Position numbers and translations under genes: made by a program
IMG/VR virus record: IMGVR_UViG_3300033153_009271
Span: 1-52,549 of that record
DNA length: 52,549 bases
Reading direction: 5' to 3' (one strand)
From: a virus
Shown here: in pieces, positions 9,971 through 34,704 of the stretch
Position numbering within the stretch: the first letter of the stretch is position 1
Layout of the letters: each line of letters starts with the position of its first letter
The notes under the pieces: model-generated
Database searches by the model: none
The model's input: the letters and a program-made list of their open reading frames with translations, nothing else
What the model was told of the DNA's origin: nothing

Positions 9971-10453
9971 ATGACTAAGAACACCCTCTACCCCCTCAAG
10001 CCAAACTACACAGGCAAGAAGTCAAGCTGGAGCGGCTTTCCCTGGCATCAAGAACCCATTGCGTATGTGGAGGATATTCCCTATAGGGCAGAGGAGATAG
10101 TGCGGGAGAAGCCTGAGTCTGAACTTCCCGTAAGAGCCGAGCATTTCGTGGTAATCCCCGATGAACTTGTACCAAAATATTTGAAGAAGGCGGAGGAGGT
10201 AGAAAAGAGGGCATGGAAGGCACGGGAGAAGGCACGGGAGAAGACACGGAAGGCACGGGAGATATGGGAGAAGGCGCGGGAGAAGGCGCGGGAGGAATGG
10301 GAGAAGACACGGAAGGCACAGAAGGAGGCGCGGGAGGAATGGGAGAAGGTGAGAAAGAAAGCCTCCCGCAACCCCCGTATCATCAAATACCTCAAAGAAC
10401 ACACCCCCTACCAGTGGGACGGTAAAACTCTTATTTTCCCCCCAAGCCCGTGA
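9971..10453 (+). CDS. Charged-helix repeat protein, 160 aa
   Basis: Residues 75-135 are an almost pure Lys/Arg/Glu/Ala/Trp helix built from short repeats such as KAREKAREE and EEWEKTRKA, likely a single alpha-helix or coiled coil. The flanks are ordinary, with a proline-rich N-terminus and a short aromatic C-terminal segment. The start follows AATCTCCTCCCCC. No family is recognised. The long open frames on the other strand here come from the low-complexity repeat. Confidence 0.7.
   Translation: MTKNTLYPLKPNYTGKKSSWSGFPWHQEPIAYVEDIPYRAEEIVREKPESELPVRAEHFVVIPDELVPKYLKKAEEVEKRAWKAREKAREKTRKAREIWEKAREKAREEWEKTRKAQKEAREEWEKVRKKASRNPRIIKYLKEHTPYQWDGKTLIFPPSP
10202..10352. repeat. Purine-rich tandem repeat region
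   Basis: Degenerate 12-21-bp repeats of the type GGCACGGGAGAA. One 21-bp unit (GCGCGGGAGGAATGGGAGAA plus G) appears twice exactly, around 10283 and 10328. They encode the charged helix of the 160-aa protein and probably change in length by slippage. Confidence 0.8.
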
Positions 10454-10878
10454 TTAAAGACTCTATAGAAAAAACCTACTGGGAGCGTGTTGGCAAACTG
10501 CAACTAGACCTTGTTATGCAATACTATTGCAGGAAGCGTCTATGGTGGCAGTTTTGGAAGCCCAAATATTCCCCTCTTTCCCCTCCTACACCATCGGCAG
10601 AAGAGATAGAAAAATTCTGTGCTGTTAAAGGATGTAGGAAGCCATCAATCGTAAAAGGAATGTGCTGTATGCACTACACAAGATTAAGAAGAGGTGGGAG
10701 TGTTGGAGAGCCACAAGAGAGGGTGCATCACAATAAAAGAGCATTCCCAAAGTGCGAACATTTACCCAAAGCCTACAATAGCAAATGTTGTCTTCGATGC
10801 TATAACAAACATGCAAAACGAGCGGAAAGGAAACGCAAAATAACTGTTCTACATCATACTCACCACACAGATGTCTGA
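10450..10878 (+). CDS. Zinc-binding protein with an HNH-associated C4/C2HY module, 142 aa
   Basis: A GTG start overlaps the previous stop (GTGA). CAVKGCRKPSIVKGMCCMHY (around residues 57-76) is the same small Cys/His module found at the N-termini of the two HNH endonucleases in this genome (22361 and 34704). A second cluster, CEHL...CCLRCYNKH, lies near residue 100. No HNH catalytic motif follows. It may be a stripped homing-endonuclease remnant reused as a DNA-binding protein. The function is otherwise unknown. Confidence 0.65.
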   Translation: MIKDSIEKTYWERVGKLQLDLVMQYYCRKRLWWQFWKPKYSPLSPPTPSAEEIEKFCAVKGCRKPSIVKGMCCMHYTRLRRGGSVGEPQERVHHNKRAFPKCEHLPKAYNSKCCLRCYNKHAKRAERKRKITVLHHTHHTDV

Positions 10879-21425: not shown

Positions 21426-23798
21426 ATGTCAATTCAACACGTCGCTAAGAACCTTAATGCACAGACTGCGGAGCATAAAATCCTTGAAATTGAAGAAGAA
21501 CTTACCCGCATCAAGCTTGGAAGGCTTAAACTTCGGTACTTTATCGAGTACTGTTTCTCTCAATATCAGCACGCAAAGCATCACTCTATCCTCTGTGAGC
21601 ATCTTGAAGGACTCGAAAGGTATGTAGCGAGTGATGGGAAGGAGGGTATCGGTAGACTTATTGTCACGTTGCCGCCCCGGCACGGGAAGAGTTTGCACGT
21701 GTCTTGGTTCTTTCCAGCTTGGTTTTTAGGGCGTAATCCAGATAAACGTGTTATGATCTGTAGCCATGGAGCAGAACTTGCCGAAGGTTTTTCTGGGAAA
21801 GTGCGTAGTCTCGTTGAGACCACCGAATATCAAAAGCTCTTCGGTAAGATGGCGACGAAGAATAACATCCCGCACCCCATCACCCTCGATCCTGACACAC
21901 GCAGCAAACAAGCATGGGATATCGCTGGAAGATATGGAGGAGTGTTTGCTGCTGGAGTTGGAGGCCCTATTACAGGACGCGGTGCAGACATCCTTATCAT
22001 TGACGACCCGATCAAGAACAGAGAGGAGGCAGATTCTGAGACTGTTAGATCAAATATTAAGGATTGGTTTACGTCAACAGCATTCACAAGACTCCAACCG
22101 GGAGCAGCAGTAATTATTATGATGTGTATGACGGGGGATACGCCTGTTTTGATGTGGGACGGAACAGAGAAGCCATTGAAGAATATCAAGGTTGGGGACT
22201 ATGTTGCGACTCACGACAACGGGCGCATCACAACAGCTCGGATTATGAATTGGAAGAATCAAGGTCTTGATTTATGCTATGAAATCAAGATGAGTTCTGG
22301 TATAACTGTTAAAGCAAACAAGAGACATCCGTTTCTCGTTCGGCGTAACGGTAAACAAGAATGGGTACGACTAAAGAATCTCAAGATAGGCGACAACATC
22401 CTGCGGGCTATTGGGGCAAGTGGAAAGGTAAATTATGCTCAGCAGAAGGCTGTGATAAGCCAGCAAAATGTAAGGGATACTGCGATTCACACTATAACAA
22501 GCAGCGGTGGAAAGATGGTGTTCGTCCACCTTCGAACAATCCCCGTTCGAATCGCGAGGCACGTTTGCGATACCGTTATGGTATTGGCGTCGACGAGTAC
22601 GAAGCAATGGTCGAGGTTCAGGGGGGGCGTTGCGCAATTTGCAACAAGCTTCCCGATACCCAGGCCAAAGTGTACAGGAATCGACGACTCTTTGTTGACC
22701 ACTGTCATAACACAAAACAGGTTAGAGGGTTGCTCTGCAACAATTGCAACCTCGTCATTGGATATGGTAAAACAGAAGCTAATCTGCTTGCAGCCGCTCG
22801 ATACTTACGAGATCGTTCCTGATACTATTGCATCAATAAAACCTGTTGGTAGAGAGGATGTATTTGATATTCAGGTAGATAGAACAGAAAACTTTATTGC
22901 TAACGGATTGATTAGCCACAATACTCGATGGCACGAAGATGATCTCATTGGATGGCTTCTTTCTGAGAAAAATGAGAACAATACGTGGAAGTTGTTAAAT
23001 TTCCCCGCAATTGCTGAGGATAATGATGCCTTTAGGGCGCCTGGGGAGGCTTTGTGGCCTGAGTGGTTTTCACTTGAATATCTGGAACAGAACTACAAGA
23101 CGCTTCTCCCGCCGCGGGACTGGAATGCGATGTACCAACAACGTCCTACCAGTGATGAAGGAGAAGTGTTTATTAGAGATTGGTTCGTGTACGGCAACCT
23201 TCCTGAAAAGGATGAAATCAGCTACGCCCTGCAGGTCTGGGATTGTGCTCTTACAGAGAAGGATGAGGGAGATTATAGTGCTGGAGTAACTATGTTCGTT
23301 ACGAAGAGCGGAGTGTTTGTAGCAGATGTAGTCCGTGGACACTGGAACTTCCCAACTTTGAAACAGAAAATGTTCGAACAATATGAATATTGGTCAAGAC
23401 ATCACCGTGTCTCCAGAGTGTGTATTGAGAATAGGGTAGCAGGACAGTCTATGATCCAATCATTGAAGAAAGAGTCAAGTCTTCCTATTATCCCAATGGA
23501 ACCTGAATCTCGGCTGGGAAGATCCAAACGTCTACGAGCTGAAGCGGTAGCAGGTTATGTACAGTCTGGACGTGTGATCTTTCGAAAGAACGCTCCGTTC
23601 CTGCATGACTTCGAACATGAACTTCTGAGCTTTCCCCATGGAAAACACGACGATATGGTGGATGCATTTGTTTATGGTTTAATACAAGTTCAGGGTGGCG
23701 GAAGAGCGACACGTAGTGTTGTTCAAAAACACAAGAACCGTATGATGAATATGGGTGGTAGAAGGGATCGACTCTCGTTGTTAGTTGGAGGACTTTGA
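21426..23798 (+). CDS. terL: Terminase large subunit with in-frame intein
   Basis: 790 codons: 524 residues of terminase split by a 266-residue intein. The ATPase has Walker A PPRHGKS (around residue 85) and Walker B ILIIDDP (around 190). The intein interrupts the coupling motif, between IIMM and TRWHEDDL. The C-terminal RNase-H-like nuclease has LQVWDCALT and HDDMVDAF acidic residues. It packages DNA into the prohead and cuts it at headful or specific ends. After splicing, the conserved MM-TRWH junction is restored. The holin-like gene precedes it and the portal follows. Confidence 0.95.
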   Translation: MSIQHVAKNLNAQTAEHKILEIEEELTRIKLGRLKLRYFIEYCFSQYQHAKHHSILCEHLEGLERYVASDGKEGIGRLIVTLPPRHGKSLHVSWFFPAWFLGRNPDKRVMICSHGAELAEGFSGKVRSLVETTEYQKLFGKMATKNNIPHPITLDPDTRSKQAWDIAGRYGGVFAAGVGGPITGRGADILIIDDPIKNREEADSETVRSNIKDWFTSTAFTRLQPGAAVIIMMCMTGDTPVLMWDGTEKPLKNIKVGDYVATHDNGRITTARIMNWKNQGLDLCYEIKMSSGITVKANKRHPFLVRRNGKQEWVRLKNLKIGDNILRAIGASGKVNYAQQKAVISQQNVRDTAIHTITSSGGKMVFVHLRTIPVRIARHVCDTVMVLASTSTKQWSRFRGGVAQFATSFPIPRPKCTGIDDSLLTTVITQNRLEGCSATIATSSLDMVKQKLICLQPLDTYEIVPDTIASIKPVGREDVFDIQVDRTENFIANGLISHNTRWHEDDLIGWLLSEKNENNTWKLLNFPAIAEDNDAFRAPGEALWPEWFSLEYLEQNYKTLLPPRDWNAMYQQRPTSDEGEVFIRDWFVYGNLPEKDEISYALQVWDCALTEKDEGDYSAGVTMFVTKSGVFVADVVRGHWNFPTLKQKMFEQYEYWSRHHRVSRVCIENRVAGQSMIQSLKKESSLPIIPMEPESRLGRSKRLRAEAVAGYVQSGRVIFRKNAPFLHDFEHELLSFPHGKHDDMVDAFVYGLIQVQGGGRATRSVVQKHKNRMMNMGGRRDRLSLLVGGL
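22125..22922 (+). mobile_element. Intein in the terminase ATPase, 266 aa
   Basis: It starts with Cys1 (CMTGDTPVLM, block A), continues with KANKRHPFLVRRNG (block B), and ends with DVFDIQVDRTENFIANGLISHN-type blocks F and G. The terminal His-Asn is followed by Thr as the +1 nucleophile. Every splicing residue is present, so self-splicing is expected. The middle (around residues 100-225 of the intein) has no homing-endonuclease motif in this frame. An HNH endonuclease is encoded there in another frame. Confidence 0.92.
22361..22822 (+). CDS. HNH (endonuclease VII-type) homing endonuclease nested out of frame in the intein
   Basis: 153 aa, read in a different frame from the terminase and wholly inside the intein. 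It has the N-terminal module CSAEGCDKPAKCKGYCDSHY, then the recombination endonuclease VII/HNH core: CAICNKLP, LFVDHCHNTK and GLLCNNCNLVIG, with paired zinc cysteines and catalytic DHCH. All family residues are intact while the intein frame also stays open. It should cut intein-free alleles and drive intein spread. The ATG at 22361 overlaps real intein sequence (block B end), and the true start may lie a little downstream. No pyrimidine leader is evident. Confidence 0.88.
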   Translation: MGTTKESQDRRQHPAGYWGKWKGKLCSAEGCDKPAKCKGYCDSHYNKQRWKDGVRPPSNNPRSNREARLRYRYGIGVDEYEAMVEVQGGRCAICNKLPDTQAKVYRNRRLFVDHCHNTKQVRGLLCNNCNLVIGYGKTEANLLAAARYLRDRS

Positions 23799-32477: not shown

Positions 32478-34216
32478 TGCCTAGAGAGAAGTTACTCGTC
32501 GGCGAACATATGGCGGGTGGTCTGAACCTAGCCGCGGGAGAGAAGAATGTGGGAGAAGAACAGAATATTGAGTCTCGTCATATGTCGTATTCTCCTGATG
32601 GAGCTGTAGTTGCGAGTCTTGGGTATTCAATGCCGTCTGCTTGGACAGTAGCGGAGACTGGGGAGGGGATTGATGGTCTCTATGAGATGGGAGAATACCC
32701 GCTTGTGTTCAAAGCTGTAAACGGCAAGATTCTCTATACGAATGCGACGACAGTGGATTGGATGGAGGCGGATACAGGAATATCCTTGACGAAGGATAAC
32801 CCTGTGTTCTTCACCGAGTTCCGTGGGAATATCTACTACTGCAATGGTGTGGAAGATGCAGGTGTGATTGCTGTAGGAAGACTGGACACTGCTATAACAG
32901 TTGCTTCTACTACGATTGAACTTGCAGATGATAATGGATTCAGATTTAACAATGGTGTAGATAAGGTTTATATTGAAGGAGACGAGATTGATTATACTGC
33001 TGTATCGACTGATGATCTTACGACTGTAACGAATATCACTGCCTCTCACGATGCGGATACATATGTCACACAGGCGCGGACTATCACTGCTCCAGCGAGT
33101 ACCTCATTAAAATGCAAGACTATGGCGATGTGGCAGAGCACTCTTTGGCTTGGTGGCCTTTCTGATTTTCCGGGTGCTATTCCATATAGTAAAAGCACTA
33201 CAAATATTGGGAATGTAGACAATGTGAAGGATTTTACGGATGACAATAACTATCTGCTACGCAAGGGTGCGGTAACAGCATTGCTTCCTACGCGTGATCG
33301 TCTCTACGTCTTCTCTGAAAAGGAGGTGTATTATATTACGATTGAGATTACCTCCAATGGTTTGCGTGTTTTCTCTGAGATTCGTCTCTTCACACCGAAT
33401 TATGGAACCCCTAATGCATTTACAGTGGAGGAGATGGAGGATGTCGTGACGTTTTATACTGGAGATCGCTTCATTCGTATTGGATATGATCCAGATATTG
33501 ATCAACTCCTTCCTGATGAAAAATTTGATGAAGAGGTTTATCCTATCCTTGATATATCACGTCGATACCCGCAAACTGCAGCACGTCTTAAATATATTCC
33601 TCACGAAAAGAAAAATAGGCTTACTCTGAATATTGATGGCAAACTAAAAACTATCACCTATGATAATAGGCTTGATGAGTATAGCTATCCAGATGAACAA
33701 GATGTGGCATTTTATGTCGCGTTCGATGGTTTCACGTACTTTGGAAATCCAGATGATGACAAGGTATATAGGGTTGGAGGTGACTATGAAGCGGACGGTC
33801 TTGCAGTTCCTCATTCTTATACTACAGGCCGATATGATCTTGGAGATCGTAATTCGAAGTTTTTTAGAGATGGAGTGATTGAGGGATTTATTGGCGCGAA
33901 CACTACAATCAATTTTGAAGTGCTTATAAATGATGTGGTAGTCGGTGGGATACGAACGATTACCGGTCAGACTCATGGAGACTTAGCTTCTAATGCTAAA
34001 GCGATAGGAGATCTTCTTGTTGGATCTGGTACGGAGGTTGGTGGTGGTGGTGATACAACAGCTTTGTATCCTTTCAGATATCCGTTCGTTATTGCCGGAC
34101 GAGGCGAAGATATCAAGTTACGTTTCTCTTCTTTTACAGAAGGTTCAACATGGGCCATCGATAAGTGGCAAGTCAGTGTTGTTCTCTTCGATGATGTACC
34201 AGACACCGCATATTAA
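32477..34216 (+). CDS. Tail stabilisation / tubular protein (P22 gp10-like)
   Basis: 579 aa. It is beta-propeller-like, with repeated segments such as TLWLGGLSDFPGAIPYSKS and RDRLYVFSEKEVYYITI that recur in podovirus tail needle-hub and nozzle proteins. It would form the short tail extending from the adaptor ring. The ATG at 32477 overlaps the adaptor stop by one base; a TTG at 32471 is less likely. It ends against a convergent HNH gene (4-bp overlap). Confidence 0.75.
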   Translation: MPREKLLVGEHMAGGLNLAAGEKNVGEEQNIESRHMSYSPDGAVVASLGYSMPSAWTVAETGEGIDGLYEMGEYPLVFKAVNGKILYTNATTVDWMEADTGISLTKDNPVFFTEFRGNIYYCNGVEDAGVIAVGRLDTAITVASTTIELADDNGFRFNNGVDKVYIEGDEIDYTAVSTDDLTTVTNITASHDADTYVTQARTITAPASTSLKCKTMAMWQSTLWLGGLSDFPGAIPYSKSTTNIGNVDNVKDFTDDNNYLLRKGAVTALLPTRDRLYVFSEKEVYYITIEITSNGLRVFSEIRLFTPNYGTPNAFTVEEMEDVVTFYTGDRFIRIGYDPDIDQLLPDEKFDEEVYPILDISRRYPQTAARLKYIPHEKKNRLTLNIDGKLKTITYDNRLDEYSYPDEQDVAFYVAFDGFTYFGNPDDDKVYRVGGDYEADGLAVPHSYTTGRYDLGDRNSKFFRDGVIEGFIGANTTINFEVLINDVVVGGIRTITGQTHGDLASNAKAIGDLLVGSGTEVGGGGDTTALYPFRYPFVIAGRGEDIKLRFSSFTEGSTWAIDKWQVSVVLFDDVPDTAY

Positions 34217-34704
34217 TGCTTAATCTTATCTCTATATATCTGGCAACAATCATGACACCAATCTTGGTGGGTATCTCCTCTATATACGGAATGATCACGT
34301 TTCCTCCAATAAAAATTGCTTCTTGGGAGGGTATTTTTACAATGATGGCATTGTTTGTCAGTGCTTCCATAGTAGTATCTCGCGTGCGCACGTTGATGTT
34401 TGGTATGATTAGTTACCTCAAGGTTCTCAATATTGTTATTAAGAATATTGCCATCAATATGATGAACGTATTCCTTCCGCGTCAACTTTCTCCCAAGGTG
34501 ATCTTCCATGATCTTCCTGTGAAGAAGTTTTCTCTTCTTGCCTACTTTAATACAAAGATATCCTTGCTCATTAGGCCATCCTTCGCCTGGCATACGATTT
34601 ATTCTGTCCAATCTGCCGTAGAGACGTTTTCTGTCATAATGAATGCTGCAATATCCTTTTGCCAAGACCTCTTTGGGGCAGTTATCAACAGAACACGTAT
34701 TCAT
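34213..34704 (-). CDS. Free-standing HNH homing endonuclease, inserted antisense
   Basis: 163 aa on the minus strand within the plus-strand tail operon. The N-terminal module CSVDNCPKEVLAKGYCSIHY matches those at 22361 and 10450. The HNH core is YVHHIDGNILNNNIENLEV, and a zinc cluster (CHHC ... CHDC) closes the protein. Its own promoter gives a leaderless mRNA. Such genes move between phages by cutting uninterrupted loci. The insert replaces an intergenic gap and breaks no gene. A long hydrophobic plus-strand frame on the same DNA is its shadow. Confidence 0.88.
   Translation of the reverse strand: MNTCSVDNCPKEVLAKGYCSIHYDRKRLYGRLDRINRMPGEGWPNEQGYLCIKVGKKRKLLHRKIMEDHLGRKLTRKEYVHHIDGNILNNNIENLEVTNHTKHQRAHARYYYGSTDKQCHHCKNTLPRSNFYWRKRDHSVYRGDTHQDWCHDCCQIYRDKIKH

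Follow-up and report, generated by a model that had tools for sequence, protein, structure and literature searches.

Canonical large inteins carry a LAGLIDADG or HNH endonuclease in frame between blocks B and F, the endonuclease being part of the intein polypeptide. Split inteins of the gp41-1 type have a free-standing homing endonuclease gene between their two halves. A further arrangement, an out-of-frame HNH gene within a host frame that remains open, was published for phage methylases (2025, PMC11855218). In this ShiLan-type insertion there is no splicing domain, and the insert stays in the host protein as a result; its HNH gene begins with GTG and has no detectable ribosome-binding site, and the arrangement is known from few phages. 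The same paper cites Gorbalenya 1998 for overlapping frames, as well as a preprint (Gosselin et al., 2025, bioRxiv 10.1101/2025.01.02.630785) that deals with overlapping frames and with inteins of “non-canonical architecture” in actinobacteriophages. By its title, we take the scope of this preprint to be limited to actinobacteriophages, and it is possible that the Gordonia and Mycobacterium phage members of the family described below are already known through it. The open-access literature searched, which excluded Gorbalenya 1998 and the Gosselin preprint, contained no intein with a nested endonuclease.

Among phage terminases, the TerL6-f intein of Chandler gp6 sits in the ATPase coupling motif, and its splicing has been demonstrated with a reporter (Kelley et al., 2016, PMC5050341). 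That study ties endonuclease activity to TerL1-b and TerL1-c (LAGLIDADG), and those main-text sections that bear on the question do not mention a nested HNH gene in TerL6-f. The Chandler intein is 99.9% identical to the intein of Phlyer (L009), which does contain a nested HNH gene. Phage terminase inteins that are supposed to lack an endonuclease, TerL6-f for instance, may conceal endonuclease genes.

The locus analyzed here lies in a viral DNA of 52,549 nucleotides (IMG/VR record IMGVR_UViG_3300033153_009271; the whole stretch is referred to as the window). It is very likely an intein of class-1 type, inserted at the ATPase coupling motif in terL, with a separately translated, overlapping HNH homing gene; translation of the HNH protein, cleavage of the terL site and homing are inferred. 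The intein belongs to the same site class as mycobacteriophage TerL6-f and is homologous to it, and its splicing is inferred by analogy with this Chandler relative (PMC5050341). With canonical inteins it shares the splicing domain and the place of the endonuclease coding, which, however, forms a separate overlapping gene. As in gp41-1 type systems, the endonuclease would be a separate protein, but the intein is unsplit and terL remains one ORF of 790 aa. Like the ShiLan-type insertion (PMC11855218), the locus combines an HNH gene in an alternative frame, an open host frame and a patchy distribution; unlike it, the inserted element is an intein, with start codon and Shine-Dalgarno sequence of the nested gene lying in conserved intein codons. 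Besides fusion and placement between split halves, overprinting would thereby be a third means of linking an intein to its homing enzyme.

Layout of the terL intein and the nested HNH gene

The terL gene is interrupted in frame between ...VIIMM and TRWHEDDL, and comprises the following features:

21426-23798, + strand: terL ORF, single and uninterrupted, 790 aa, containing the in-frame intein
21426-22124, + strand: terL N-extein with ATPase domain (Pfam Terminase_6N; PHROG terminase large subunit), ending ...VIIMM
22125-22922, + strand: intein of 266 aa, from Cys1 to His-Asn, followed by Thr
22125-22418, + strand: N-terminal splicing domain of the intein, residues 1-98, with Cys1 and RHPF block (Pfam Intein_splicing/Hint)
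22350-22360, + strand: ribosome-binding region of the HNH gene, in the window only a weak GGTAAA
22361-22822, + strand: nested HNH/endonuclease VII gene, 153 aa, ATG start, in the -1 (= +2) frame of terL
22361-22364, + strand: ATGG, HNH start codon overlapping the TGG of the invariant intein Trp (residue 80)
22419-22784, + strand: intein-frame linker, residues 99-220, overlapping the HNH gene, predicted disordered
22785-22922, + strand: C-terminal splicing domain of the intein, residues 221-266, ending NGLISHN before T
22820-22822, + strand: HNH stop codon TGA, overlapping a Pro-Asp codon pair of the C-terminal intein part
22923-23798, + strand: terL C-extein (Pfam Terminase_6C), beginning with TRWHEDDL (ATPase coupling motif), then the nuclease domain

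The isolated intein matches the Pfam family Intein_splicing (PF14890, E=2.4e-19), and the HNH frame, in which a zinc-finger-like motif at the N-terminus precedes the catalytic domain, matches Endonuclease_7 (PF02945, E=4.5e-20). PHROGs agree with Pfam on the terL, intein and HNH assignments, and the middle of the intein frame (22419-22781) has no family match in either collection. The first-pass annotation had placed the intein at 22125-22922 and the HNH gene at 22361-22822 within an open terL frame, and had proposed intact splicing ends and a complete endonuclease VII/HNH protein in the other frame. All of this held; the profile search of both frames, which it had put forward as a check, matched both families and nothing in the linker. 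Across 6,459 bases the window shows 100% identity with a second IMG/VR contig, L004, whose length differs; this makes a frameshift error in the window unlikely. No direct DNA similarity to the window terL was detected in the phage collection.

Structure prediction is consistent with this division. AlphaFold2 (56 family members) yields a confident Hint domain built from residues 1-98 and 221-266 (pLDDT about 95), while residues 99-220 remain below a pLDDT of 50; the linker is hence only predicted to be disordered. The best PDB match of the intein model in Foldseek is the Ssp DnaB mini-intein (E 4.8e-9), and the Npu DnaB mini-intein was matched as well. The HNH model reaches a pLDDT of 84 and gives weak fold matches to Hpy99I and T4 endonuclease VII (E about 0.01-0.03), which the sequence profile also matches (E 4e-7 to 9e-6). 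The sequence and fold criteria for a class 1-type intein (Cys or Ser at position 1, C-terminal Asn, Thr, Ser or Cys at +1, Hint fold) and for an endonuclease VII/HNH protein (profile match, D-H...N, zinc-binding CxxC pairs) are fulfilled.

Conservation of the frame relation and of the translation signals

Homologs were collected by IMG/VR scans with four seeds (extein plus N-terminal intein part, HNH, intein N block alone, and mini-intein), by a scan of genome contigs, and by tblastn of phage records with the HNH protein. The same order, with the HNH gene in the -1 frame and no stop anywhere in the intein frame, was found in at least 258 loci representing 177 distinct inteins from actinophages, IMG/VR phages and bacterial genomes. 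An HNH gene in frame with the intein was found in none of the loci from the four seeded scans and the genome contigs. Each scan returned only its best 80 loci, and rare in-frame forms could have been missed. The scan with the intein N block, which does not depend on HNH sequence, recovered the arrangement intact in 74 of 79 loci. The frame relation is kept even at 36-45% GC.

In the phage records, the best tblastn matches lie within the terminase genes of phages of Gordonia and Mycobacterium. The HNH gene again occupies the -1 frame of terL, in an intein at the homologous site, in each of Angelicage, Nordenberg, Affeca, Fosterous, AlanGrant, Phlyer and phi1_186018; the annotations of these seven records leave it unmarked. 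The nested HNH of AlanGrant (L002:1669-2253) is longer, at 194 aa, and possesses a second zinc-finger-like motif at its N-terminus; the intein frame is open across the extra stretch as well. The genome-contig scan added Bradyrhizobium, Nonomuraea, Mycolicibacterium, and MAGs of Chloroflexi, Eremiobacterota and others. In two contigs among the homologs, L152 (=L265) and L268 (=L339), the intein frame is closed by a 1-nt indel, which may reflect misassembly or a dead allele.

Residues expected for function are conserved in both products. Cys1, the terminal Asn and Thr at +1 are present in 177 of 177 distinct inteins, with C-terminal dipeptides HN (169), SN (7) and KN (1), and the HNH residues C91, C94, D113, H114, C126, N127, C129 and N130 are invariant among 58 sequences.

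The start of the inner gene is equally fixed. In 118 of 118 nonredundant homologs it lies at one exact position and consists of the base before the invariant Trp codon TGG plus the first two bases of that codon, giving ATG in 96 and GTG in 22 cases, against a third-codon-position background of 21% A and 24% G. A Shine-Dalgarno core (GGAG/GAGG/AGGA) is found 4-18 nt upstream in 71/118, compared to 9% of control stretches. The Gly codon that precedes the Trp in the intein is GGA in 67/129 cases versus 99/733 elsewhere. The window itself has no good core, only the weak GGTAAA. The HNH stop codon is TGA in 110/118 and overlaps an Asp or Glu codon where the C-terminal splicing part begins, and 22/118 homologs have a stop in the HNH frame no more than 9 nt upstream of the start. 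Sequence comparison thus shows that the signals for translating the inner gene, which occupy invariant host-domain codons, are conserved and selected; translation of the HNH protein itself is inferred, as there are no expression data.

Selection on the two overlapping frames

The window alone does not support a strong claim about the open intein frame. The first-pass annotation had estimated, by uniform-codon arithmetic, a chance of about 1 in 1,600 for its 154 codons without a stop. This argument failed because it used the wrong null: when synonymous codons are shuffled with HNH amino acids and codon pool fixed, the intein frame stays open with P=0.42, and a comparative test is therefore needed. 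Across 83 nonredundant homologs (below 85% nucleotide identity), the same kind of shuffling predicts 91.4 stops in the intein frame over the HNH gene and none is seen, whereas the third frame, serving as a control in the same sequences, has 776 stops against 782 expected. Such P-values multiply sequences with shared ancestry. For 29 sequence-disjoint pairs, random synonymous HNH changes, as many as separate the pair, were added to one member: 41.9 stops are expected in total and 0 are seen (log10 P = -19.9). The pairs reduce the problem of shared ancestry but do not remove it. Free-standing HNH relatives, which the homolog searches also recovered outside inteins, are closed in the equivalent frame in 24/24 cases, with 1-11 stops each. 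The comparison shows that openness of the intein frame is under selection across the family and that both messages are maintained.

The two frames are constrained very differently within the overlap. In the 29 pairs, differences per site at HNH codon positions 1/2/3 amount to 0.130/0.093/0.358. HNH position 3 corresponds to intein-frame position 2, where most substitutions of the overlap consequently fall. Outside the overlap, intein-frame positions 1/2/3 differ by 0.131/0.111/0.362 in the N block and by 0.085/0.050/0.414 in the C block. From these codon-position differences it follows that the HNH protein and the splicing domain are under purifying selection and that the linker, the absence of stops aside, is not; a codon-position comparison had been proposed in the first-pass annotation. 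Column identity agrees with the substitution pattern (intein N 0.67, overlap 0.43, intein C 0.75, HNH core 0.70). The earlier suggestion that the central part of the intein frame has no role beyond keeping the frame open is supported by the substitutions concentrated at intein codon position 2, the low pLDDT (<50) and the missing family match. Its broader claim of a distinct, dual-coded arrangement also held: the arrangement is real and conserved, while the function of the HNH protein as a homing enzyme remains inferred. What is shown by sequence comparison is a conserved dual-coding intein, i.e., the frame relation, its conservation, and selection on both products. The family thus offers many natural examples of long regions coding in two frames, where strong selection acts on one protein and the other need only stay open.

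Mobility, decay and alternative explanations

Patchy presence with intein-free alleles, a criterion for homing endonucleases, is fulfilled, the evidence coming from actinophage relatives only. In cluster B3 of the mycobacteriophages, 14 records have the intein and 37 do not, at extein identities of 97.7-99.5%. The junction in Heathcliff, where the insert is absent, matches the flanks of Phlyer in 60/60 and 58/60 bases, and Gordonia phages exhibit the same presence/absence pattern. For the empty site of Paries, exact 20-mers gave no match because the exteins differ. Intein and HNH gene move together as a unit: L014 and L016 are alike in the insert (87% identity in the splicing domain, 83% in the HNH) and divergent in the extein (34%). 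Distances of HNH and splicing domain also correlate (Mantel r 0.44, permutation maximum 0.15).

The HNH gene decays in several loci that retain the intein. An early stop in the HNH gene (L026, L179, L257) or deletion of its catalytic core (L209, L289-291) leaves the intein frame open, and in L249 and L286 the HNH gene is wholly absent. This asymmetry fits the prediction of a homing cycle, although homing itself is inferred. Three of these loci (L289:1081-1590, L290:2501-3010, L291:1600-2109) are mini-inteins from which a deletion that preserves the frame has removed the catalytic core; they retain the HNH start site, the zinc-finger motif and the C-terminal tail.

The following mechanism is proposed. 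Ribosomes reading terL would produce a precursor, in which residues 1-98 and 221-266 fold into the Hint domain; this domain would splice itself out and restore TerL, the segment in between being a loose loop. Internal initiation at the Trp-overlapping ATG or GTG would yield the separate HNH protein, which presumably cuts intein-free terL, and repair from an intein-bearing copy would spread intein and HNH gene together. A bolder reading, which we consider likely as a whole, is that these loci represent a worldwide unrecognised class of inteins whose homing endonuclease is an independently translated overlapping gene, with start and ribosome-binding site within conserved codons of the splicing domain and stop at the beginning of the C-terminal part, and with a disordered intein-frame linker that is merely a by-product of the second gene.

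Four other explanations need to be weighed. The one that survives best, even though we regard it as unlikely, is that the nested HNH serves the phage, e.g., by aiding the terminase in DNA packaging, rather than homing. Its location within terL and the fact that phage HNH proteins can aid terminases (PMC11855218) speak in its favor. However, close phage relatives lack the whole insert, which makes it dispensable, and the HNH gene is broken or deleted in several loci that retain the intein. No nested HNH has expression or cleavage data behind it, and homing is not distinguished from another nuclease role. Less plausible still, and in our view very unlikely, is production of the HNH by -1 ribosomal frameshifting off terL, giving a TerL-intein-HNH fusion without internal initiation. 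The HNH gene indeed sits in the -1 frame of terL, but an ATG or GTG occupies a single position in all 118 homologs, Shine-Dalgarno cores are enriched, and the stops shortly upstream of the start in 22/118 leave almost no room for a shift.

The remaining two explanations are all but excluded. That the intein frame is open by chance, through HNH codon composition and without dual-coding selection, would be compatible with the window alone (P=0.42), but not with 0 versus 91.4 stops in the 83 sequences, 0 versus 41.9 in the 29 pairs, the closed frame of all free-standing relatives, or the maintenance of the frame at low GC. That an ordinary in-frame endonuclease was displaced by two compensating frameshifts, as sequencing errors or recent mutations, can point to the single-base indels in L152 (=L265) and L268 (=L339), but is contradicted by the identical contig L004 and by 258 loci sharing the -1 relation with 0 in frame. 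The first-pass annotation had named two observations that would refute dual coding: in-frame homologs, of which the scans described above found none, and a frameshift error, which is unlikely.

Beyond the intein, the window contains an ORF at 10450-10878 (+ strand, 142 aa) without Pfam match, whose zinc-finger-like motif CAVKGCRKPSIVKGMCCMHY resembles the N-terminal motif of the nested HNH. A second HNH gene at 34213-34704 (- strand; Pfam HNH_3, E=2.1e-9) is free-standing, and its N-terminal zinc-finger-like motif resembles that of the nested HNH as well.
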